In this document: piece by piece, positions 32,822-40,713 of the stretch
How positions within the stretch are numbered: the first letter of the stretch is position 1
How the letters are laid out: each line of letters opens with the position of its first letter
Assembly (NCBI RefSeq): GCF_026162625.1
Contig: NZ_JAOTBD010000011.1
Span: forward strand, 1-64,000
Reading direction: 5' to 3'
DNA length: 64,000 nt
Source: Paracoccus beibuensis
Lineage (GTDB): Bacteria; Pseudomonadota; Alphaproteobacteria; Rhodobacterales; Rhodobacteraceae
Made by a program: the position numbers and the translations under genes
Notes under the pieces: model-generated
What the model was told of the DNA's origin: nothing
What the model saw: only the letters and a program-made list of their open reading frames with translations
The model's database searches: none

Positions 32822-33913
32822 ATGTCGATCACGATCAGCGGAATGACCAAGCGGTTCGACAGGACCGAGGTGCTGCGCGGCATCGACCTCGACGTCGCCG
32901 ACGGAGAGCTGATGGCCCTGCTGGGGCCGTCAGGGTCGGGCAAGACGACGCTTCTGAAGATCATCGCGGGTCTGGAATGGCCGGACGCGGGACAGTTGCA
33001 GGTGGCGGGGCAGGACTGGCTGCAGTTGGCCGCGCGCGACCGCCGCATCGGGTTCGTCTTTCAGCACTACGCCCTGTTCCCGCACATGAGCGTGCGCGAC
33101 AACATCGCCTTTGGACTTGACGTCCAGCCCCGGGGACAACGGCCGTCCCGCGCACAGATCGCCGCCAAGGTCGATGAGCTGATGGCGTTCCTGCAGATCG
33201 ACCAGCTGGCTGACCGCTATCCGGCGCAGTTGTCGGGCGGCCAGCGCCAGCGCGTGGCCCTGGGCCGGGCACTGGCGATCCAGCCGCGCGTGCTGCTGCT
33301 GGACGAACCTTTCGGTGCACTGGACGCCGCGATCCGCCGCGACCTGCGCCGCTGGCTGCGGGGCGTGCACGAGGCAACCGGATCGACCACGATCTTCGTG
33401 ACGCACGACCAGGAGGAGGCGTTCGAGCTGGCCGACCGCGTCGTCGTCATGGGGCAAGGCCAGATCGAGCAGATCGGACATGCCGACGAGATCCACGACC
33501 ACCCGGCCAGCCCCTTCGTCGCCCGCTTCATGGGCGCCACGGTCGAGCTGCCGGTGACGCTGCTCGCCGGTCGTGCCAGCGGGCCGGGGCTGGACCTGAC
33601 CGCCCTGCCGCGCCGCGCGCTGCCGGATGGTCCGGCGCACATCCTTGCCCGCCCCGCCGACATCCGCGCGGTTCCCGATGCCGGCGGCTGCTGGACGGTC
33701 GGCAGCCTAGGCAGCACCGGGGCCGAACTGCATCTGACCGCCTCCCGCCCCGACGGCACCGAGGTCGAGGTCCAGATGCCCCGCCGCGGTGCGCCTGCCC
33801 TGACCCGTGGCGCCACCGTCACCCTCGGCGTCGAAGCCGCCGCGGTATTCCCCTATAGCCGCCGCGACCATGCGGCCCACGTCCTGCCCTTGCGAAAGGA
33901 AATCGCCCGATGA
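32822..33913 (+). CDS. cysA: sulfate/thiosulfate ABC transporter ATPase
   Basis: The ATPase of the sulfate importer, 363 residues. Walker A is GPSGSGKTT (35-43), the Q-loop is FVFQHYALFPHMSV, the signature is [15 protein letters not shown], Walker B is VLLLDEPFGALDAAIR and the H-loop is TIFVTHDQEEAFELAD. The C-terminal TOBE-like regulatory part is HILARPADIRAVPD. AAGGGG precedes the ATG. The stop overlaps the start of the binding-protein gene by four bases (ATGA), as do all later junctions in this operon, giving tight translational coupling. The sulfate assignment rests on the neighbouring binding protein and CysT/CysW pair. Confidence 0.9.
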   Translation: MSITISGMTKRFDRTEVLRGIDLDVADGELMALLGPSGSGKTTLLKIIAGLEWPDAGQLQVAGQDWLQLAARDRRIGFVFQHYALFPHMSVRDNIAFGLDVQPRGQRPSRAQIAAKVDELMAFLQIDQLADRYPAQLSGGQRQRVALGRALAIQPRVLLLDEPFGALDAAIRRDLRRWLRGVHEATGSTTIFVTHDQEEAFELADRVVVMGQGQIEQIGHADEIHDHPASPFVARFMGATVELPVTLLAGRASGPGLDLTALPRRALPDGPAHILARPADIRAVPDAGGCWTVGSLGSTGAELHLTASRPDGTEVEVQMPRRGAPALTRGATVTLGVEAAAVFPYSRRDHAAHVLPLRKEIAR

Positions 33914-34902
33914 AACTGCCCCTTCTGGCCGCCGCCGTTGGCCTGACACTGGCCGGTCCCGCCGCCGCGCAGGACAAGCTGTTGAACGTCAGCTATGACG
34001 TCGCCCGCGAGTTGTTCGAGGTGCTGAACCCGGCCTTTGCCGAACATTGGCAAGAAGAGACCGGCCGGACCATCACCATCGACATGTCGCATGGCGGGTC
34101 GTCCAAGCAGGCCCGCGCGATCCTGGAAGGGCTGCCGGCCGACGTGGTGACCTTCAACCAGGAAACCGATATCGACGTCCTGGCCGAGGGCGGCCTTCTG
34201 CCCGAGGACTGGCGCGACGCGTTCCCGAACGGCGCCTCGCCCTTCTATTCGCTGCCGGCCTTCCTGGTGCGCGAAGGCAATCCGAAGAACATCGACGATT
34301 GGGACGACCTGGCGCGCGAGGATGTGGCGCCCGTCTTCCCGAACCCCAAGACCAGCGGCAATGCCCGCTATACCTATCTGGCCGCCTATGCCTATGCGCT
34401 GGCCCAGAACGATGGCGATGAAGCGGCGGCGCAGGACTTCGTGCGCAAGATCTTTGCCGGTGTGCCGGTCTTTGACACGGGCGGGCGTGCTGCCACCCAG
34501 ACCTTCGCCGAACGCGGCATCGGCGACGTGCTGGTCACCTTCGAAGCCGAGACCGGCCAGATCGCAGAACAATACTCCGCCGAGGGTTTCGAACGCGTGA
34601 CACCGTCGATGAGCCTCTTTGCCGCCTTCCCGGTTGCCGTCGTGGCCGAGAATGCCGAGGATAACGGCACCACCGACGTCGCGCAGGCCTATCTGGATTG
34701 GCTCTATACCCCGGAGGCACAGCGCATTCTGGCCGAGCGTGATTATCGTGTGACCGACGAAGCGGTTGCCGCCGAATTCGCCGACGCACAGGCCCCGGTC
34801 GAACTGGTCACCGTGGACGAGGTCTTCGACGGTTGGGATGCCGTGACCGAAAACCACCTGGCCAGCGGCGGCATCCTGGACCAGGTCTTCGTGAACCGAT
34901 GA
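33910..34902 (+). CDS. sulfate-binding periplasmic protein
   Basis: A periplasmic receptor of 330 residues that delivers sulfate (or thiosulfate) to CysTWA. The signal peptide is MKLPLLAAAVGLTLAGPAAA, with likely cleavage after AAAQ. Family motifs are LNVSYDVARELFEVLNPAFA, DMSHGGSSKQARAILEGLPA, DVVTFNQETDIDVLAE and FPNPKTSGNARYTYLAAYAY. These residues shape the anion pocket in Sbp/CysP. The frame is complete. Sbp and CysP cannot be told apart with certainty by eye, so no symbol is given. Confidence 0.92.
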   Translation: MKLPLLAAAVGLTLAGPAAAQDKLLNVSYDVARELFEVLNPAFAEHWQEETGRTITIDMSHGGSSKQARAILEGLPADVVTFNQETDIDVLAEGGLLPEDWRDAFPNGASPFYSLPAFLVREGNPKNIDDWDDLAREDVAPVFPNPKTSGNARYTYLAAYAYALAQNDGDEAAAQDFVRKIFAGVPVFDTGGRAATQTFAERGIGDVLVTFEAETGQIAEQYSAEGFERVTPSMSLFAAFPVAVVAENAEDNGTTDVAQAYLDWLYTPEAQRILAERDYRVTDEAVAAEFADAQAPVELVTVDEVFDGWDAVTENHLASGGILDQVFVNR

Positions 34903-35747
34903 TCGCGGCGGCCGCCCCCATCCGCGCCAAGCGCGTCCTGCCGGGCTTTACGCTCAGCCTGGGGACGACGCTGCTCTATCTGGTGCTGATCGTTCTGATC
35001 CCGATCGCGGCGCTGGTCCTGAAGGGGGCCGAGATCGGTCCCGCCGCCTTCTGGGCCATCGTCAGCAGCGACCGGGCGGTGGCGGCCTTTCGCATCACGC
35101 TGACTGCGGGGGCCATCGCCACCGCCTTCAACGCCGCTTATGGCCTCTTGATGGCGTGGGTGCTGGTCCGGTACGACTTTCCCGCCAAGCGCCTGCTGGA
35201 CGCGCTGATGGACATTCCCTTCGCGTTGCCGACAGCGGTGGCTGGACTGTCGCTGACGGCGCTGTTTTCCGCCAATGGTTGGTTCGGGTCCGTGCTGGAC
35301 GCCGCCGGGCTGCAGGTCGTCTACACCATCTGGGGAATCGCGCTGGCGATGGCCTTCACCTCGATCCCCTTCGTGGTGCGCACGGTCCAGCCGGTGCTGG
35401 AGGATTTGGACAGCTCGCTGGAACAGGCGGCCGAGACGCTTGGCGCGCGCCCCTGGCAGATCTTTTCCCGCGTCGTCTTCCCGGCGATCCTGCCCGCCTG
35501 GCTGGCGGGCTGCACGACCGCCTTTGCCCGGTCGCTTGGCGAATTCGGGGCGATCGTCTTCATCGCCGGCAACCTGCCGTTCGAGACGGAAATTGCCGCG
35601 CTGCTGGCTTATATCCGGCTTGAGGAATACGACTATAACGGCGCTGCCGCCATTGCGCTGGTCCTGCTGGCTTTCGCGCTGGTGCTGCTGGTCGTTTCAA
35701 ACATCCTGCAATCCTGGGCTGCCCGCCACCGCGAGGCCACCAGATGA
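34899..35747 (+). CDS. cysT: sulfate ABC transporter permease CysT
   Basis: An inner-membrane channel subunit (also called CysU) of 282 residues. The ATG at 34899 overlaps the stop of the binding-protein gene. Six membrane segments run from [20 protein letters not shown] to [20 protein letters not shown]. The ATPase-coupling loop [20 protein letters not shown] and [20 protein letters not shown] are typical of CysT. It pairs with CysW, whose gene overlaps its stop by four bases. Confidence 0.92.
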
Positions 35748-36592
35748 GCGCGCAGCCCCTGATCGCCCCCGGCGCGACGCCACATCACGGCCGCCCCGCC
35801 CGCACCGGCGGCGCGCGCCTGCTGGTGGCGCTGGCCGTTGTCCTGACGCTGCTGGTCGTGGTGGCGCCGCTGACCTATATCTTCGTGCGCGCCTTTTCCG
35901 AAGGCTGGCAGGTTTATGCCGCCAACATCATGGACCCCGACACGCTGCACGCCATCTGGCTGACCAGCCTGATCGCCGTGATCGTGGTGCCGCTGAACAT
36001 CGGCTTCGGCATCGCCGCAGCCTGGGCCATCGCCAAGCACCGCTTCCCCGGACGAGGCGTGCTGGTCACGATGATCGAGATCCCGTTTTCAATCTCTCCG
36101 ATCATCGCCGGCATCTGCTATCTGCTGCTCTATGGCCGGCAGGGGCTGCTGGGCCCATGGCTGCGAGAGATGGACCTGCAGGTGGTCTTCGCATTGCCGG
36201 GCATCGTTCTGGTGACGATGTTCGTGACCGCCCCCTTTGTGGCGCGCGAGGTCCTGCCCCTGATGCAGGCGCAGGGCACCGACCAGGAACAGGCCGCCGT
36301 GACGCTTGGCGCGTCCGGCTGGCAGGTCTTCCGGCGGGTGACGCTGCCCAACATCAAGTGGGCGCTGCTTTACGGCGCGGTCCTCTGCACCGCACGGGCG
36401 GTTGGCGAATTTGGCGGCGTGTCCGTCGTTTCCGGCAGCGTGCGCGGCCAGACGAACACGCTGCCCCTGCATGTGGAGCTGCTGTTCAACGACCTGAACA
36501 CCGTCGGTGCCTTTGCCGCCGCATCCACCCTCACGCTGATCGCGCTGGTCGCGCTGGCGCTGAAGACGGCGCTGGAATCGCGGCGCGGCTGA
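35744..36592 (+). CDS. cysW: sulfate ABC transporter permease CysW
   Basis: The second channel subunit, 282 residues. Motifs are [40 protein letters not shown] and the coupling loop [20 protein letters not shown], followed by [20 protein letters not shown], which is diagnostic of CysW. The N-terminus carries an alanine- and proline-rich extension before the first membrane segment. It is the last gene of the sulfate unit. A 56-bp gap then leads to pxpA, short enough for read-through. Confidence 0.92.
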
Positions 36593-36648: not shown

Positions 36649-37410
36649 GTGACCACGATCGACCTGAACAGCGACTTGGGCGAAGGCTACGGCGCCTGGC
36701 GGATGGGCGACGACGCGGCGATGCTGGGCATCGTCAGCTCGGCCAATATCGCCTGCGGATTTCACGCGGGCGATCCGGCGGGGCTGCTGGCGACGCTGCG
36801 CGAGGCGGCGCGGCGAGGCGTGGCGGTGGGGGCGCATGTCAGCTATCCCGACCGCGTGGGGTTTGGACGCCGGGCGATGGATGTCGCGCCGGGCGATCTG
36901 GAAGCCGATGTCATCTACCAGATCGGCGCCCTGCAGGGGCTGGCGCGGGCCGCGGGGACGCGGGTTGCCTACGTCAAGCCGCACGGCGCGCTTTACAACA
37001 CCATCGCCCATGACGCGCGGCAGGCCGATGCGGTGATCGCGGCGATGCTGGCGGTCGACCCGTCGTTGGTGCTGATGGGGCTGGCGGGCGCCCCGATCCT
37101 GGACCGGGCCGCCGCCGCCGGACTGTCCGTCGTGGCCGAGGCGTTCGCGGACCGGGGCTACGCCGCCGACGGGACCCTGCTGGCGCGCGGCACCTCCGGA
37201 GCCGTCCTGACCGATCCCGACCAGATTGCCGAACGCATGGTCCGCCTGGCGCGCCAGGGCCAGATCGAGGCGCAGGACGGCACCCTGCTGTCCCTGCGCG
37301 CGGGCAGCATCTGCGTGCATGGCGACAGCCCCGGCGCCGTGGCAATGGCCGCCTGCATCCGAGAGGCCCTGATCGCCGGAGGGGTCGGGATCGCGGCGTT
37401 CGCACCATGA
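36649..37410 (+). CDS. pxpA: LamB/YcsF family, 5-oxoprolinase subunit A
   Basis: 253 residues of the LamB/YcsF family, which in the PxpABC complex hydrolyses 5-oxoproline (pyroglutamate) to glutamate with ATP. Signature motifs are [74 protein letters not shown] and [18 protein letters not shown], which include the Asp/His residues of the active site. The GTG at 36649 is the start; GGAAGAAGG lies upstream, and the frame before it is a shadow of cysW. The stop overlaps the fused pxpB-pxpC gene (ATGA). No frameshift is seen. Confidence 0.92.
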
Positions 37411-38951
37411 TCCGCTTCCTGCCCGTCGGCCCACGCTGCTTCCTGGCCGAGCTTGCGGACCTCGACGCTACCCTGGCGCTTTACGACGCGCTGCTGGCCG
37501 ACCCGCTGCCGGGTGTGATCGACCTGGTGCCCGCGGCGCGCACGATCATGGTGCGCACTGCGCCGGGCATCGCGGCTGACGCGGCGCTTGCCCGTGCGAT
37601 CCGCGGCCGCGCGGCTGCGCCCCCGCAGGCCAGCGACCGGATCGCCGATGTGATCGAGCTGCCGGTCACCTATGACGGCGAGGATCTGGACGAGGTCGCG
37701 TGCCTGATGAACCTGACGGTGGCAGAGGTCATCAAGGCGCACCAGGCCGCCATCTGGCAGGTTGCCTTCTGCGGCTTCGCGCCCGGCTTCGCCTACATGA
37801 CCTGCGACGATGCCCGCTTCGATCTGCCCCGCCGGACCGAGCCGCGGACACGGATCCCGGCAGGCTCGGTCGCCCTGGCGGGTCGGTTCTGCGGCGTCTA
37901 TCCGCAAGAGTCGCCCGGCGGCTGGCAGCTGATCGGCCGCACCGATGCGGCGATGTGGGACCTGTCGCGCGAGCCACCCGCGTTGCTGCGGCCGGGGATG
38001 CGGGTCCGCTTCGTGCCGGGGCGGGTGGTCGTGCGGTCCGACACCCCCGCGCCCACGGCCAAGGTGCAGGGGCTGCGGGTTCAGGAGACGGCGTTTCCGA
38101 TCCTTGTGCAGGATCTGGGCCGCCCGGGGCAGGCAGGGCAGGGGGTCAGTGCGTCCGGCGCGCTGGACCGGGGCGCCTTGCGCCGCGCCAACCGCGCCGT
38201 CGGCAACCCTGCGGGCGCGCCGGCGCTGGAGGTTACCTCAGGCCCCGTGCGGCTTCTGGCGGAAGTCTCGATGACGCTGGCACTTTCCGGCGCGGCGCGG
38301 GCAACCTTCGGCGCCGCTGCGGTCGAGCCGGGCGGGGCCTTCGCGCTGGACGCCGGCGACCACCTGCAGATTGCCGCCGCGACGGCCGGGATGCGCAGCT
38401 ATCTTGCGGTTCGCGGCGGGTTTCAGGTGCAGCGGACGCTCGGCTCTGCGGCGACCGACACGCTGGCGCATGTTGGCCCGTCCCCCTTGGTTGCGGGCGA
38501 TGCGCTGGCGCTGGCGCACCAGGCCGCGATGGCAGTCAGCGATCCCGACCCGGCGCCGGACCTGCCGGCAATCGGCGACGTCGTGAACCTGCCAGTCACC
38601 CTCGGCCCCCGGACCGACTGGTTCGACGACAGCGCGGTCCAAAGTTTCCTGGCGCAGGAATGGCTGGTGACGCGGCATTCGTCCCGCGTGGGGATCCGGC
38701 TCTCGGGCGGCCCGATCCTGCGGCCGGACGCCGCCGAGCTTCCCTCGGAGGGCTGCGCGGCCGGTGCCATCCAGGTGCCGCATTCCGGCCAGCCGGTGCT
38801 GTTCCTGGCGGACCACCCGCTGACCGGCGGCTATCCCGTCATCGCCACCCTGCAACCGGATACGCTGGACCTCGCGGGCCAGCTGCCGCCGGGCGCGCGC
38901 ATCCGCTTCGATGCCGCCGCGCCCTTTGCGCCCATCGATCCGGAAGGCTGA
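37407..38951 (+). CDS. fused 5-oxoprolinase subunits B and C (KipI-KipA fusion)
   Basis: 514 residues join two subunits that are usually separate. The first 220 are KipI/PxpB-like ([80 protein letters not shown]). The rest is KipA/PxpC-like ([96 protein letters not shown]). The same KipI-KipA pair forms the carboxyltransferase domain of urea carboxylase. Here it overlaps pxpA and is followed one base later by a biotin carboxylase, so the module could be biotin-dependent rather than plain ATP-driven. The fusion is direct observation; the mechanism is inference. Confidence 0.9.
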
Positions 38952-38952
38952 C

Positions 38953-40713
38953 ATGACGATCTTCGACGACACGCCGCTTGGCCCCATGTCCCGCGTCCTG
39001 ATCGCCAATCGGGGCGAAATCGCGCTGCGGATCATCCGCGCCTGCCGGGACGAAGGCATTGCCGCAATTGCCGTCTATGCCGATCCCGACCGCGATGCCC
39101 CGTTTGTGCGACTGGCCGACGAGGCGTTCCCGCTGGACGGCACCCGTCCGTCCGAGACCTACCTGAACACCGCGCGCATCCTGGAAGTTGCCCGCCTGTC
39201 GCATGCCGATGCGGTCCATCCGGGCTATGGCTTCCTGTCGGAAAGCGCCCGATTTGCGCGGGCTGTGCAGGATGCCGGCCTGACCTGGATCGGCCCCGAT
39301 CCGGCCGCCATCGACGCGCTTGGCGACAAGATCCGCGCCCGCGAGTTTGCGCGGCAGGTGGGGGCACCGCTTGTCGCGGGCACCCCCGGACCCGTCGCCA
39401 GCGCGGCCGAGGCACTGGCGTTCGCGCGCGACCACGGCCTTCCCGTCGCCATCAAGGCGGCCTTCGGTGGCGGCGGTCGTGGGATGAAGGTTGCCTGGGA
39501 TCTCGACGAGGTCGAGGAGCTGTTTGCAAGCGCCACGCGCGAAGCCGTGGCCGCCTTCGGACGCGGCGAATGCTATCTGGAGCAGTTCCTCGACCGCCCC
39601 CGGCATGTCGAGGTGCAGGTGCTGGCCGACCGCCATGGTACGGTCAAGGTGCTGGGCACCCGCGACTGTTCCCTGCAGCGTCGCAACCAAAAACTGATCG
39701 AGGAAGCGCCCGCACCCTTCCTGACGCCCGATCAGCAGGACCGCATCACCGGCGCCGCCCGCGACATCTGCGCCCGTGCGGCCTATAGCGGCGCCGGAAC
39801 GGTCGAGTTCCTGATGTCGGAAAGCGGGACGATCTCTTTCCTCGAGGTGAACACGCGCCTGCAGGTCGAACATCCCGTGACCGAGGAGACCACCGGCATC
39901 GATATCGTGCGCGCCCAGATCAGCGTGGCGCGCGGGGCGCGGCTGGTCGATGACCGCATGCCCCAGCCGCGGGGCCACGCCATCGAGTTCCGCATCAATG
40001 CCGAGGATCCAGGCCGCGGCTTTCTGCCGACGCCGGGACCGGTCACGCTGTGGCAGCCGCCCGGCGGGATCGGCATCCGCCTCGACAGCGGCGTCGAGCA
40101 GGGGGATGCCGTGCCGCCGCAATTCGATTCGATGATGGCCAAGCTGATCGTCTGGGGACCGGACCGCCAGACGGCGCTGAACCGGGCGGCGCGTGCGCTG
40201 GCCGAGTTCAGGATCGACGGCGTCGCCTCGACGCTGCCGTTCCACCGGACAGTGCTGACCGCGCCAGAGTTTCGGGCCACGGACGGGTTCGCCGTTCATA
40301 CGCGCTGGATCGAGACCGACTTCGCCGACCGCATGGCCACGGCCGTCGCACCGGCGGCGCGGGTGACACCCGCCGACGATCCGCCGATGCTGCGCCTGGC
40401 CATCGAGATCGACGGACGGCGGCACATGCTGGCGCTGCCCCCCGGCCTTATGACAGCGGCACCCGCGAGAACGCAGCAGCAGGACCCGCCCAAGGCCGAT
40501 CCTGAAATCGTTTCGGCCGTCGTGTCGGGGACGTTGTCGCTGTGGAAGGCCGCAGATGGCGCGCAGGTCGAGGCCGGCCAGGTCATCGCCGTGATCGAGG
40601 CGATGAAGATGGAAACCGCTGTCACCGCCCCGATGGCGGGCCGTCTGGCGCACCTTCAGCCGGAAGGCGCATCCGTTACAACCGGAAGCGGAGTTGCGCG
40701 CATCGAGACCTGA
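38953..40713 (+). CDS. biotin carboxylase fused to a biotin carrier domain
   Basis: 586 residues with an ATP-grasp biotin carboxylase (about 10-455) and a C-terminal biotinyl domain. Motifs are RVLIANRGEIALRIIRACRD, HPGYGFLSESARFARAVQDA, the glycine-rich loop KAAFGGGGRGMKVAWDLDEV and EVNTRLQVEHPVTEETTG. The carrier ends with VIAVIEAMKMETAVTAPMAG, where Lys552 receives biotin. No acetyl- or propionyl-type carboxyltransferase gene is nearby; the only candidate partner is the KipI-KipA fusion one base upstream. It is therefore likely the energising half of a split urea-carboxylase-like enzyme acting on 5-oxoproline, another lactam or a urea derivative. It could also be an acetyl-CoA carboxylase subunit working with partners elsewhere. 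Confidence 0.92.
   Translation: MTIFDDTPLGPMSRVLIANRGEIALRIIRACRDEGIAAIAVYADPDRDAPFVRLADEAFPLDGTRPSETYLNTARILEVARLSHADAVHPGYGFLSESARFARAVQDAGLTWIGPDPAAIDALGDKIRAREFARQVGAPLVAGTPGPVASAAEALAFARDHGLPVAIKAAFGGGGRGMKVAWDLDEVEELFASATREAVAAFGRGECYLEQFLDRPRHVEVQVLADRHGTVKVLGTRDCSLQRRNQKLIEEAPAPFLTPDQQDRITGAARDICARAAYSGAGTVEFLMSESGTISFLEVNTRLQVEHPVTEETTGIDIVRAQISVARGARLVDDRMPQPRGHAIEFRINAEDPGRGFLPTPGPVTLWQPPGGIGIRLDSGVEQGDAVPPQFDSMMAKLIVWGPDRQTALNRAARALAEFRIDGVASTLPFHRTVLTAPEFRATDGFAVHTRWIETDFADRMATAVAPAARVTPADDPPMLRLAIEIDGRRHMLALPPGLMTAAPARTQQQDPPKADPEIVSAVVSGTLSLWKAADGAQVEAGQVIAVIEAMKMETAVTAPMAGRLAHLQPEGASVTTGSGVARIET

Follow-up and report, generated by a model that had tools for sequence, protein, structure and literature searches.

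The stretch of DNA analyzed here, which we refer to as the window, comprises the first 64,000 nucleotides of contig NZ_JAOTBD010000011.1 of Paracoccus beibuensis (assembly GCF_026162625.1). At positions 36649 to 40713 it contains three adjacent genes, here called the trio: pxpA, a pxpB-pxpC fusion representing the carboxyltransferase (CT), and a gene in which a biotin carboxylase (BC) is fused to its biotin carrier (BCCP). We present evidence that the trio probably encodes a biotin-dependent 5-oxoprolinase. The genes are as follows.

36649..37410, plus strand: pxpA, LamB/YcsF-family subunit, proposed hydrolase opening the activated lactam (PF03746, E 8.6e-99; GTG start)
37407..38951, plus strand: pxpB-pxpC fusion, CT of the KipI-KipA or urea carboxylase type, 514 residues (Pfam CT_C_D and CT_A_B)
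38953..40713, plus strand: BC-BCCP fusion, AccA3-like, 586 residues (Pfam Biotin_carb_N, CPSase_L_D2, Biotin_carb_C, and Biotin_lipoyl; ATG start)

The end of pxpA overlaps the start of the pxpB-pxpC fusion by 4 bases, and the ATG of the BC-BCCP gene lies one base after the stop codon of that fusion; the three genes are confirmed as a tight operon. The open reading frames and Pfam matches bear out a preliminary description of the window, which had placed a PxpA, a PxpB-PxpC fusion, and a BC-BCCP fusion here, and its proposal that BC, BCCP, and a KipI-KipA-type CT are all provided by this pair of fusions agrees with the Pfam domains, the gene order, and the matched residue pattern described below. 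PxpA scored 360 bits against the NCBIfam subfamily model NF003814, above the cut-off of 226. In the PxpB-PxpC fusion, CT_C_D covers residues 3-194 (E 8.6e-63) and CT_A_B residues 246-502 (E 2e-76). Because this protein misses the curated NCBIfam cut-offs for PxpB (131.7 bits; cut-off 145.55), PxpC (165.8 bits; cut-off 500), and TIGR00724 (226.7 bits; cut-off 230.2), we regard it as a divergent member. The BC-BCCP protein carries EVNTRLQVEH in its BC domain and the biotinyl motif EAMKME in its carrier domain. EVNTRLQVEH, which we take to be a sign of an intact BC domain, is also present in 87 of 88 relatives, and AMKME or AMKTE is found in 87 of the 88 as well, the remaining one (L142) ending at the edge of its DNA. 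The best PDB match of BC-BCCP is the AccA3 alpha subunit (653.8 bits over nearly the full length), followed by a 614-residue alpha subunit (5mlk; 649.7 bits) and then by a match of 459.5 bits. Against the urea carboxylase model TIGR02712, scores of 145.1 and 502.4 bits were obtained over two separate chains, compared with a cut-off of 1303.85.

To place the trio among its relatives, a five-sequence alignment (the window CT plus four relatives) was run against named genomes; 465 relatives were found, and the best 80 loci, chosen by CT similarity alone and with two loci contributed by some species, were examined. Conservation of the gene order, a check suggested by the preliminary description, is nearly complete among these 80 loci, in that a BC gene follows the CT fusion in all of them and PxpA is present in 79 (the exception being L154). 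They include members of 21 named genera, with 35 loci from Paracoccus and others from further Rhodobacterales, Rhizobiales, a Sphingomonas, Plasticicumulans, Cryobacterium, Agrococcus, and Friedmanniella. We take Plasticicumulans to be a gammaproteobacterium and the last three genera to be actinobacteria, which would give two phyla. In addition, sets in which all subunits are separate (PxpA-(BCCP)-BC-PxpB-PxpC) were found in Rhodobacterales and beyond at 19 loci (L078, L079, L207, L208, and L215-L229), with a small BCCP detected in some. The trio is a widespread arrangement (Pseudomonadota and Actinomycetota) with a separate-subunit counterpart in a second sequence lineage, which goes beyond the scope of the preliminary description.

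This co-conservation speaks against the possibility that PxpABC is here the usual ATP-dependent enzyme and that BC-BCCP merely travels with it as a passenger or works with a CT encoded elsewhere, such as PccB or MccB. Within the genus, BC-BCCP scores in 125 Paracoccus genomes fall into two groups (at least 632.8 bits or at most 452.1 bits), and the high-scoring kind occurs at 66 loci in 65 genomes. At 64 of the 66 it lies less than 4 kb from a PF02682 match, and for the other two, which come from fragmented assemblies, the gene is close to the beginning of a contig that has no PF02682 match. The window genome (3.94 Mb, 99 contigs, 99.99% complete) does contain other CTs, with four PF01039 proteins and five biotin carboxylases. 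The statement of the preliminary description that no other carboxyltransferase is near holds, as none of the four is on the contig of the trio (C2), an absence that still leaves room for BC-BCCP to use a distant CT, and as the only PF02682 match in the genome is the PxpB half of the fusion. Judged by positions and sizes, the four PF01039 proteins would be PccB, MccB, AccD, and AccA; open-frame length and neighborhood suggest that the other four BCs are pyruvate carboxylase (open frame of 1153 residues), AccC, PccA, and MccA. PccA and PccB are ∼3 kb apart on the same contig, MccA and MccB ∼1 kb apart on the same contig, and AccA and AccD on other contigs. The trio BC would then be the sole one of the five without an assignable classical carboxyltransferase. 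The preliminary description had named co-occurrence with another CT elsewhere in the genome as something that would refute its proposal; such CTs do exist, but each appears assignable to its own carboxylase.

We then compared the PxpB and PxpC halves with those of four aligned groups: the trio type, the separate-subunit sets, urea carboxylases, and plain (biotin-free) pxpABC. Positions were chosen on sets thinned at 75% identity (40, 3, 6, and 39 PxpB sequences and 45, 6, 8, and 38 PxpC sequences, in that order of groups), the plain group being used without the long-branch L209; the residue counts given are those of the unthinned sets. Five positions distinguish the groups.

37887..37889, plus strand: F161 codon, PxpB half; plain Q in 40 of 41; trio type F 89; separate-subunit F 19; urea carboxylase Y 10
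38610..38612, plus strand: R402 codon, PxpC half; plain Q in 36 of 41; trio type R 89; separate-subunit Y 19; urea carboxylase H 9, Q 1
38817..38822 (P471-L472), plus strand: P471 codon, PxpC half; plain Q in 36 of 41; trio type P 89; separate-subunit V 19; urea carboxylase P 10
38817..38822 (P471-L472), plus strand: L472 codon, PxpC half; plain T 38 and S 3 of 41; trio type L 87, V 1, M 1; separate-subunit S 19; urea carboxylase S 10
38838..38840, plus strand: V478 codon, PxpC half; plain K/R in 39 of 41; trio type V 88, I 1; separate-subunit T 15, M 4; urea carboxylase C 10

The window fusion, with F, R, P, L, and V, departs at every position from the pattern derived here for biotin-free PxpBC (Q161, Q402, Q471, T472, and K/R478). 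The preliminary description had pointed to the residues in contact with carboxybiotin; the comparison made here uses these five positions instead, and at them the fusion differs from biotin-free PxpBC in the same manner as urea carboxylase, apart from position 402 in 1 of 10 urea carboxylases. In the Mycobacterium smegmatis pair MSMEG_0435-0436, which played no part in selecting the positions, the residues are F, R, P, V, and V, the biotin type at all five. Q161 is kept in Bacillus subtilis KipI and Escherichia coli YbgJ, with E. coli having E at 402. Among 169 loci (170 minus L234, which is without PxpC), and with histidine at 478 counted as kept, a BC is attached or within 3 kb in all 118 that have neither Q161 nor K/R/H478 (116 distinct places, two having been fetched twice, with the same verdict); the same is true of 5 of the 51 loci in which one or both are retained. 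The residue pattern divides the PxpBC family sharply, and the partnership of BC-BCCP with the PxpB-PxpC fusion is well supported. The loss of residues common in biotin-free PxpBC also counts against BC-BCCP being a passenger, an explanation that gains something from five clusters in which AccB/AccC-like genes accompany PxpBC with biotin-free residues.

In trees of PxpB and PxpC, from which L214 and L234 were left out, the trio CT joins the M. smegmatis pair with a support of 0.90 and 0.96, respectively, the support for the trio type alone in the PxpB tree being 0.19. The separate-subunit sets join urea carboxylase (0.98 in the PxpB and 0.92 in the PxpC tree), and the PxpC tree unites the two biotin-linked groups (0.997), among which the odd L209 also falls. 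An AlphaFold model of the fusion, built on the alignment of the fetched loci, had a mean predicted local distance difference test score (pLDDT) of 94.2; a single-sequence fold gave a pLDDT of 34.5 and was unusable. VIA-align related the model to TTHA0988 (Z 39.4, root mean square deviation (rmsd) 2.9, 468 aligned), MSMEG_0435-0436 (3mml_G; Z 39.0, rmsd 1.5, 284 aligned), E. coli YbgJK (5dud_A; Z 35.3, rmsd 1.8, 276 aligned), and Kluyveromyces lactis urea amidolyase (Z 34.0, rmsd 1.8, 290 aligned). According to its title, PDB entry 9YX5 (released 2025-11-26) is a M. smegmatis long chain acyl-CoA carboxylase complex with MSMEG_0435-MSMEG_0436 bound, and its chains, by sequence match, include AccA3 and both KipI-KipA chains. 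As far as title and chains go, the pair is thus found with an AccA3-containing complex, and we consider it quite improbable that BC-BCCP is a passenger or the servant of another CT. The same entry, in which the pair is bound to a household acyl-CoA carboxylase, could instead favor the view that every PxpBC, even one that stands alone, obtains its carboxybiotin from household AccB/AccC and that the trio simply brings its own supply. Consistent with this, PxpBC is homologous to the CT of urea carboxylase, and AccB/AccC-like genes also join E. coli-like PxpBC. However, co-purified PxpB-PxpC is said to hydrolyze ATP (a passage of PMC8453981, citing others), and the family is split sharply by the residue pattern; we regard a shared dependence on household AccB/AccC as highly unlikely.

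With regard to the substrate, 5-oxoproline is expected to form in all cells. According to PMC13274462, PxpABC is, per work cited there, the bacterial 5-oxoprolinase in most surveyed genomes, and ATP-dependent phosphorylation is the assumed means by which it activates the ring. PMC13274462 further reports that growth of Corynebacterium glutamicum on 5-oxoproline requires PxpT (of the NRAMP type) together with PxpABC and that its GntR regulator PxpR binds 5-oxoproline. Among the best 80 loci, 53 have an NRAMP-family protein near the trio, 45 a D-glutamate cyclase (PF07286), and 62 a GntR regulator, and at least one of the three is found in 67; the NRAMP gene is equated with PxpT by family and position, without direct alignment to C. 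glutamicum PxpT. A PxpT relative also adjoins a pxp cluster of another type in L210.

We also compared the 125 Paracoccus genomes for the trio and other PF02682 genes, the latter being mostly plain pxpABC, along with small numbers of urea carboxylases, separate-subunit sets, and AccB/AccC-type clusters. The uncorrected counts were 50 genomes with the trio only, 51 with other PF02682 only, 15 with both, and 9 with neither (Fisher p 1.8e-12). After the two contig-split genomes were moved, they became 52, 51, 13, and 9 (Fisher odds 0.044, p 1.1e-13), and in the 113 genomes that are at least 90% complete they were 50, 45, 12, and 6 (p 6.4e-14). AccC trees were made for 59 and for 71 of the 125 genomes, mostly those with an AccC position listed. 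The tree of 59 genomes has at least 10 changes between the trio and the other kind, 8 of them forced by well-supported branches; because these genomes were picked as trio-only or other-only, that tree informs on the number of switches only. The 71 genomes, which include some with both or neither (2 of the 7 with both count so through AccB/AccC-type clusters), gave 10 independent pairs, of which none changed the same way, a mean of 6.1 changed in opposite ways, and 3.9 showed no difference (sign test, median p 0.031, range 0.016-0.125). Because each replaces the other so often, the trio and the other PxpB-type system probably do the same job. No PF02538 (Hydantoinase_B, OplAH-type) protein was found in the window genome. 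We note two oddities within the genus: genome G178 has two copies of the CT and BC-BCCP pair, and, near position 177000 of contig C10 of genome G186, a CT next to an intact BC-BCCP shows a weak PF02682 match split into overlapping segments, which may reflect a damaged gene or an error of sequencing.

The near-exclusion of other PxpB-type genes and the PxpT, D-glutamate cyclase, and GntR neighbors in relatives argue for 5-oxoproline as the substrate. They have to be weighed against the idea that the trio does work as a biotin-dependent carboxylase through its KipI-KipA-type CT, but on a different small amide (some other lactam, urea, guanidine, or a ureide), with PxpA hydrolyzing the product. 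The CT fold is common to urea carboxylase, PxpT is absent from the window, and, as noted in parts of PMC4617892, msmeg_0435-0436 rise under nitrogen limitation in M. smegmatis and are grouped with urea metabolism; likewise, SAR11 clusters of biotin-dependent carboxyltransferase/carboxylase genes, which may or may not be relatives of the trio, are suggested for urea in parts of PMC10308929. Besides the partners and the near-exclusion, PxpA itself speaks against this idea. It was not found beside any of 10 urea carboxylase loci, and the window PxpA, left out of the count, holds all 31 positions for which conservation reaches 95% or more in every one of the three PxpA groups, a single position telling the groups apart at the 80% level. 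The 31 conserved positions fit an unchanged ring-opening step by PxpA, and we consider another amide an unlikely substrate.

Returning to the biotin-dependent 5-oxoprolinase, we propose the following mechanism. The BC domain, consuming ATP and bicarbonate, would load a carboxyl group onto the biotin of the carrier domain to which it is fused, and the PxpB-PxpC fusion, acting as the carboxyltransferase, would pass the carboxyl group to the 5-oxoproline lactam, most simply to its nitrogen, giving N-carboxy-5-oxoproline. PxpA would then hydrolyze the activated ring to N-carboxyglutamate, which would lose CO2 to yield L-glutamate. The net reaction would be 5-oxoproline + ATP + 2 H2O -> glutamate + ADP + Pi, with bicarbonate recycled. 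What was observed is the gene content, the conserved trio, the near-exclusion of other PxpB-type genes, the residue switch, and a relative (MSMEG_0435-0436) bound to a complex that contains AccA3, from which we infer 5-oxoproline as the substrate, the order of the steps, and N- rather than O-carboxylation. If this is correct, the trio joins two enzyme families that are normally treated separately and performs the same task by different chemistry. It would explain why PxpB and PxpC look like a carboxyltransferase, give a function to genes labeled “urea amidolyase family protein” or “allophanate hydrolase subunit,” and provide a reason why a mycobacterial acyl-CoA carboxylase binds a KipI-KipA-type pair. 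A wider idea, which we regard as possible rather than likely, is that carboxylation is a general second bacterial route to open lactams and that PxpBC became a lactam carboxylase on more than one occasion, served by biotin proteins of its own in proteobacteria and some actinobacteria and by a borrowed household AccA3 in mycobacteria. In that case, mycobacterial 5-oxoproline recycling would draw on a lipid-making carboxylase, and urea carboxylase would be one of a broader group of biotin enzymes that activate amides.

Several observations weigh against a biotin-dependent 5-oxoprolinase. First, carboxyl transfer and 5-oxoprolinase activity of the trio are predictions and not biochemistry, and the title and chains of 9YX5 do not show catalysis. 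Second, a BC next door is no proof of biotin use: a rule equating the two was rejected, as it is contradicted by L047, L210, L307, L308, and L314, at which AccB/AccC-like genes lie beside plain-type PxpBC that keeps the biotin-free residues. Third, the residue switch has exceptions: 3 of the 41 plain PxpC sequences carry the S of urea carboxylase at position 472, and 1 of 10 urea carboxylases carries Q at position 402. Fourth, the 169 loci go back to a small number of independent events, in essence one for each of two biotin-linked lineages, and the larger PxpB tree does not unite these two groups, as an earlier smaller one did (0.97). Fifth, PxpA position 64 (∼36838-36840), beside the invariant H63, is V in the trio type versus P in the plain and separate-subunit groups, a difference seen at the 80% level, with no position differing at 90%. 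Sixth, in the DNA examined, 13 of the 80 loci have none of the three partners and 27 have no PxpT; PxpT, D-glutamate cyclase, and GntR genes are absent from the window, and a search without a positive control detected no PxpT homologue in the window genome. Finally, 13 genomes of the genus carry both kinds of system, and 9 of the 125 are without any PF02682 match, so that cells can deal with 5-oxoproline in another way or put up with it; of the 125 genomes, 67 have PF02538 proteins.

A cysA-cysP-cysT-cysW sulfate/thiosulfate importer lies directly upstream of the trio (window positions 32822-36592), and the preliminary description had seen in it a hint of a link with glutathione-derived 5-oxoproline. 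This link is not supported: orthologous cys genes adjoin the trio at only 1 of 88 relative loci (L113, Paracoccus rhizosphaerae), with more distant homologues at 2 more. The importer was therefore rejected as a general functional partner, and we regard the upstream cys genes as a local arrangement, since they are common only to P. rhizosphaerae among the 88 loci. Elsewhere, a DUF1989 protein, a potential clue to the substrate, directly follows the trio in Ensifer (L162:10351-11208). In L210, a 141-residue protein resembling a biotinyl domain, with KLM in place of the biotinyl lysine motif (L210:1897-2319, minus strand), lies next to PxpT; the pxp cluster to which both belong contains a true BCCP as well. 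In a plasmid collection, 704 records contained CT relatives, including plasmids of Rhizobium, Klebsiella, Pantoea, and Salmonella; among the 40 plasmid matches listed, full-length fused CTs occur on Paracoccus, Sinorhizobium, Rhizobium, and other plasmids and are often annotated “urea amidolyase family protein.”

A biotin-dependent 5-oxoprolinase was not named in any title or abstract start listed by searches of the open-licence literature, a scope outside which most subscription journals fall; the papers listed for the PDB code 9YX5 were unrelated by title, and the parts of PMC11001197, PMC11647477, and PMC4347857 considered hold nothing on biotin-linked PxpBC beyond labels. Split homologues of the urea carboxylase CT were described by Lombard and Moreira in 2011, without functional data in the parts of PMC3199775 concerned, and pxpB, pxpC, and an extra BC/BCCP pair are reported, not joined together, in parts of PMC12427679. 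With the PxpABC of E. coli (YbgJKL), B. subtilis, and C. glutamicum, the trio shares the conserved residues of PxpA, homologues of PxpB and PxpC, and, in many relatives, a PxpT-type transporter and a GntR regulator; it differs in that PxpB and PxpC are fused, BC-BCCP adjoins them, and five common residues are replaced. Urea carboxylase (TIGR02712; K. lactis 3VA7 and 5I8I) likewise has BC, BCCP, and a CT of the same fold, with the same five positions changed (one exception), but it is a single chain of ∼1200 residues in the order BC, CT_A_B, CT_C_D, BCCP, with CT_A_B before CT_C_D, and, in the 10 loci mentioned above, without PxpA beside it. The separate-subunit sets resemble the trio in the clustering of PxpA, BC, and CT and in their biotin-type residues, whereas their subunits are all separate, their PxpB is long (∼291 residues), and their CT is sister to that of urea carboxylase. 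CapAB caprolactamase and OplAH-type 5-oxoprolinase also open lactams at the expense of ATP, and a carboxyester intermediate is one mechanism proposed for CapAB (in a part of PMC8453981), but they belong to an unrelated protein family and use no biotin. A further parallel is MSMEG_0435-MSMEG_0436 as seen in the title and chains of 9YX5: its CT joins that of the trio in both trees and its partner AccA3 is the nearest PDB relative of BC-BCCP, whereas its CT is in two chains and its biotin protein is that of acyl-CoA carboxylases.

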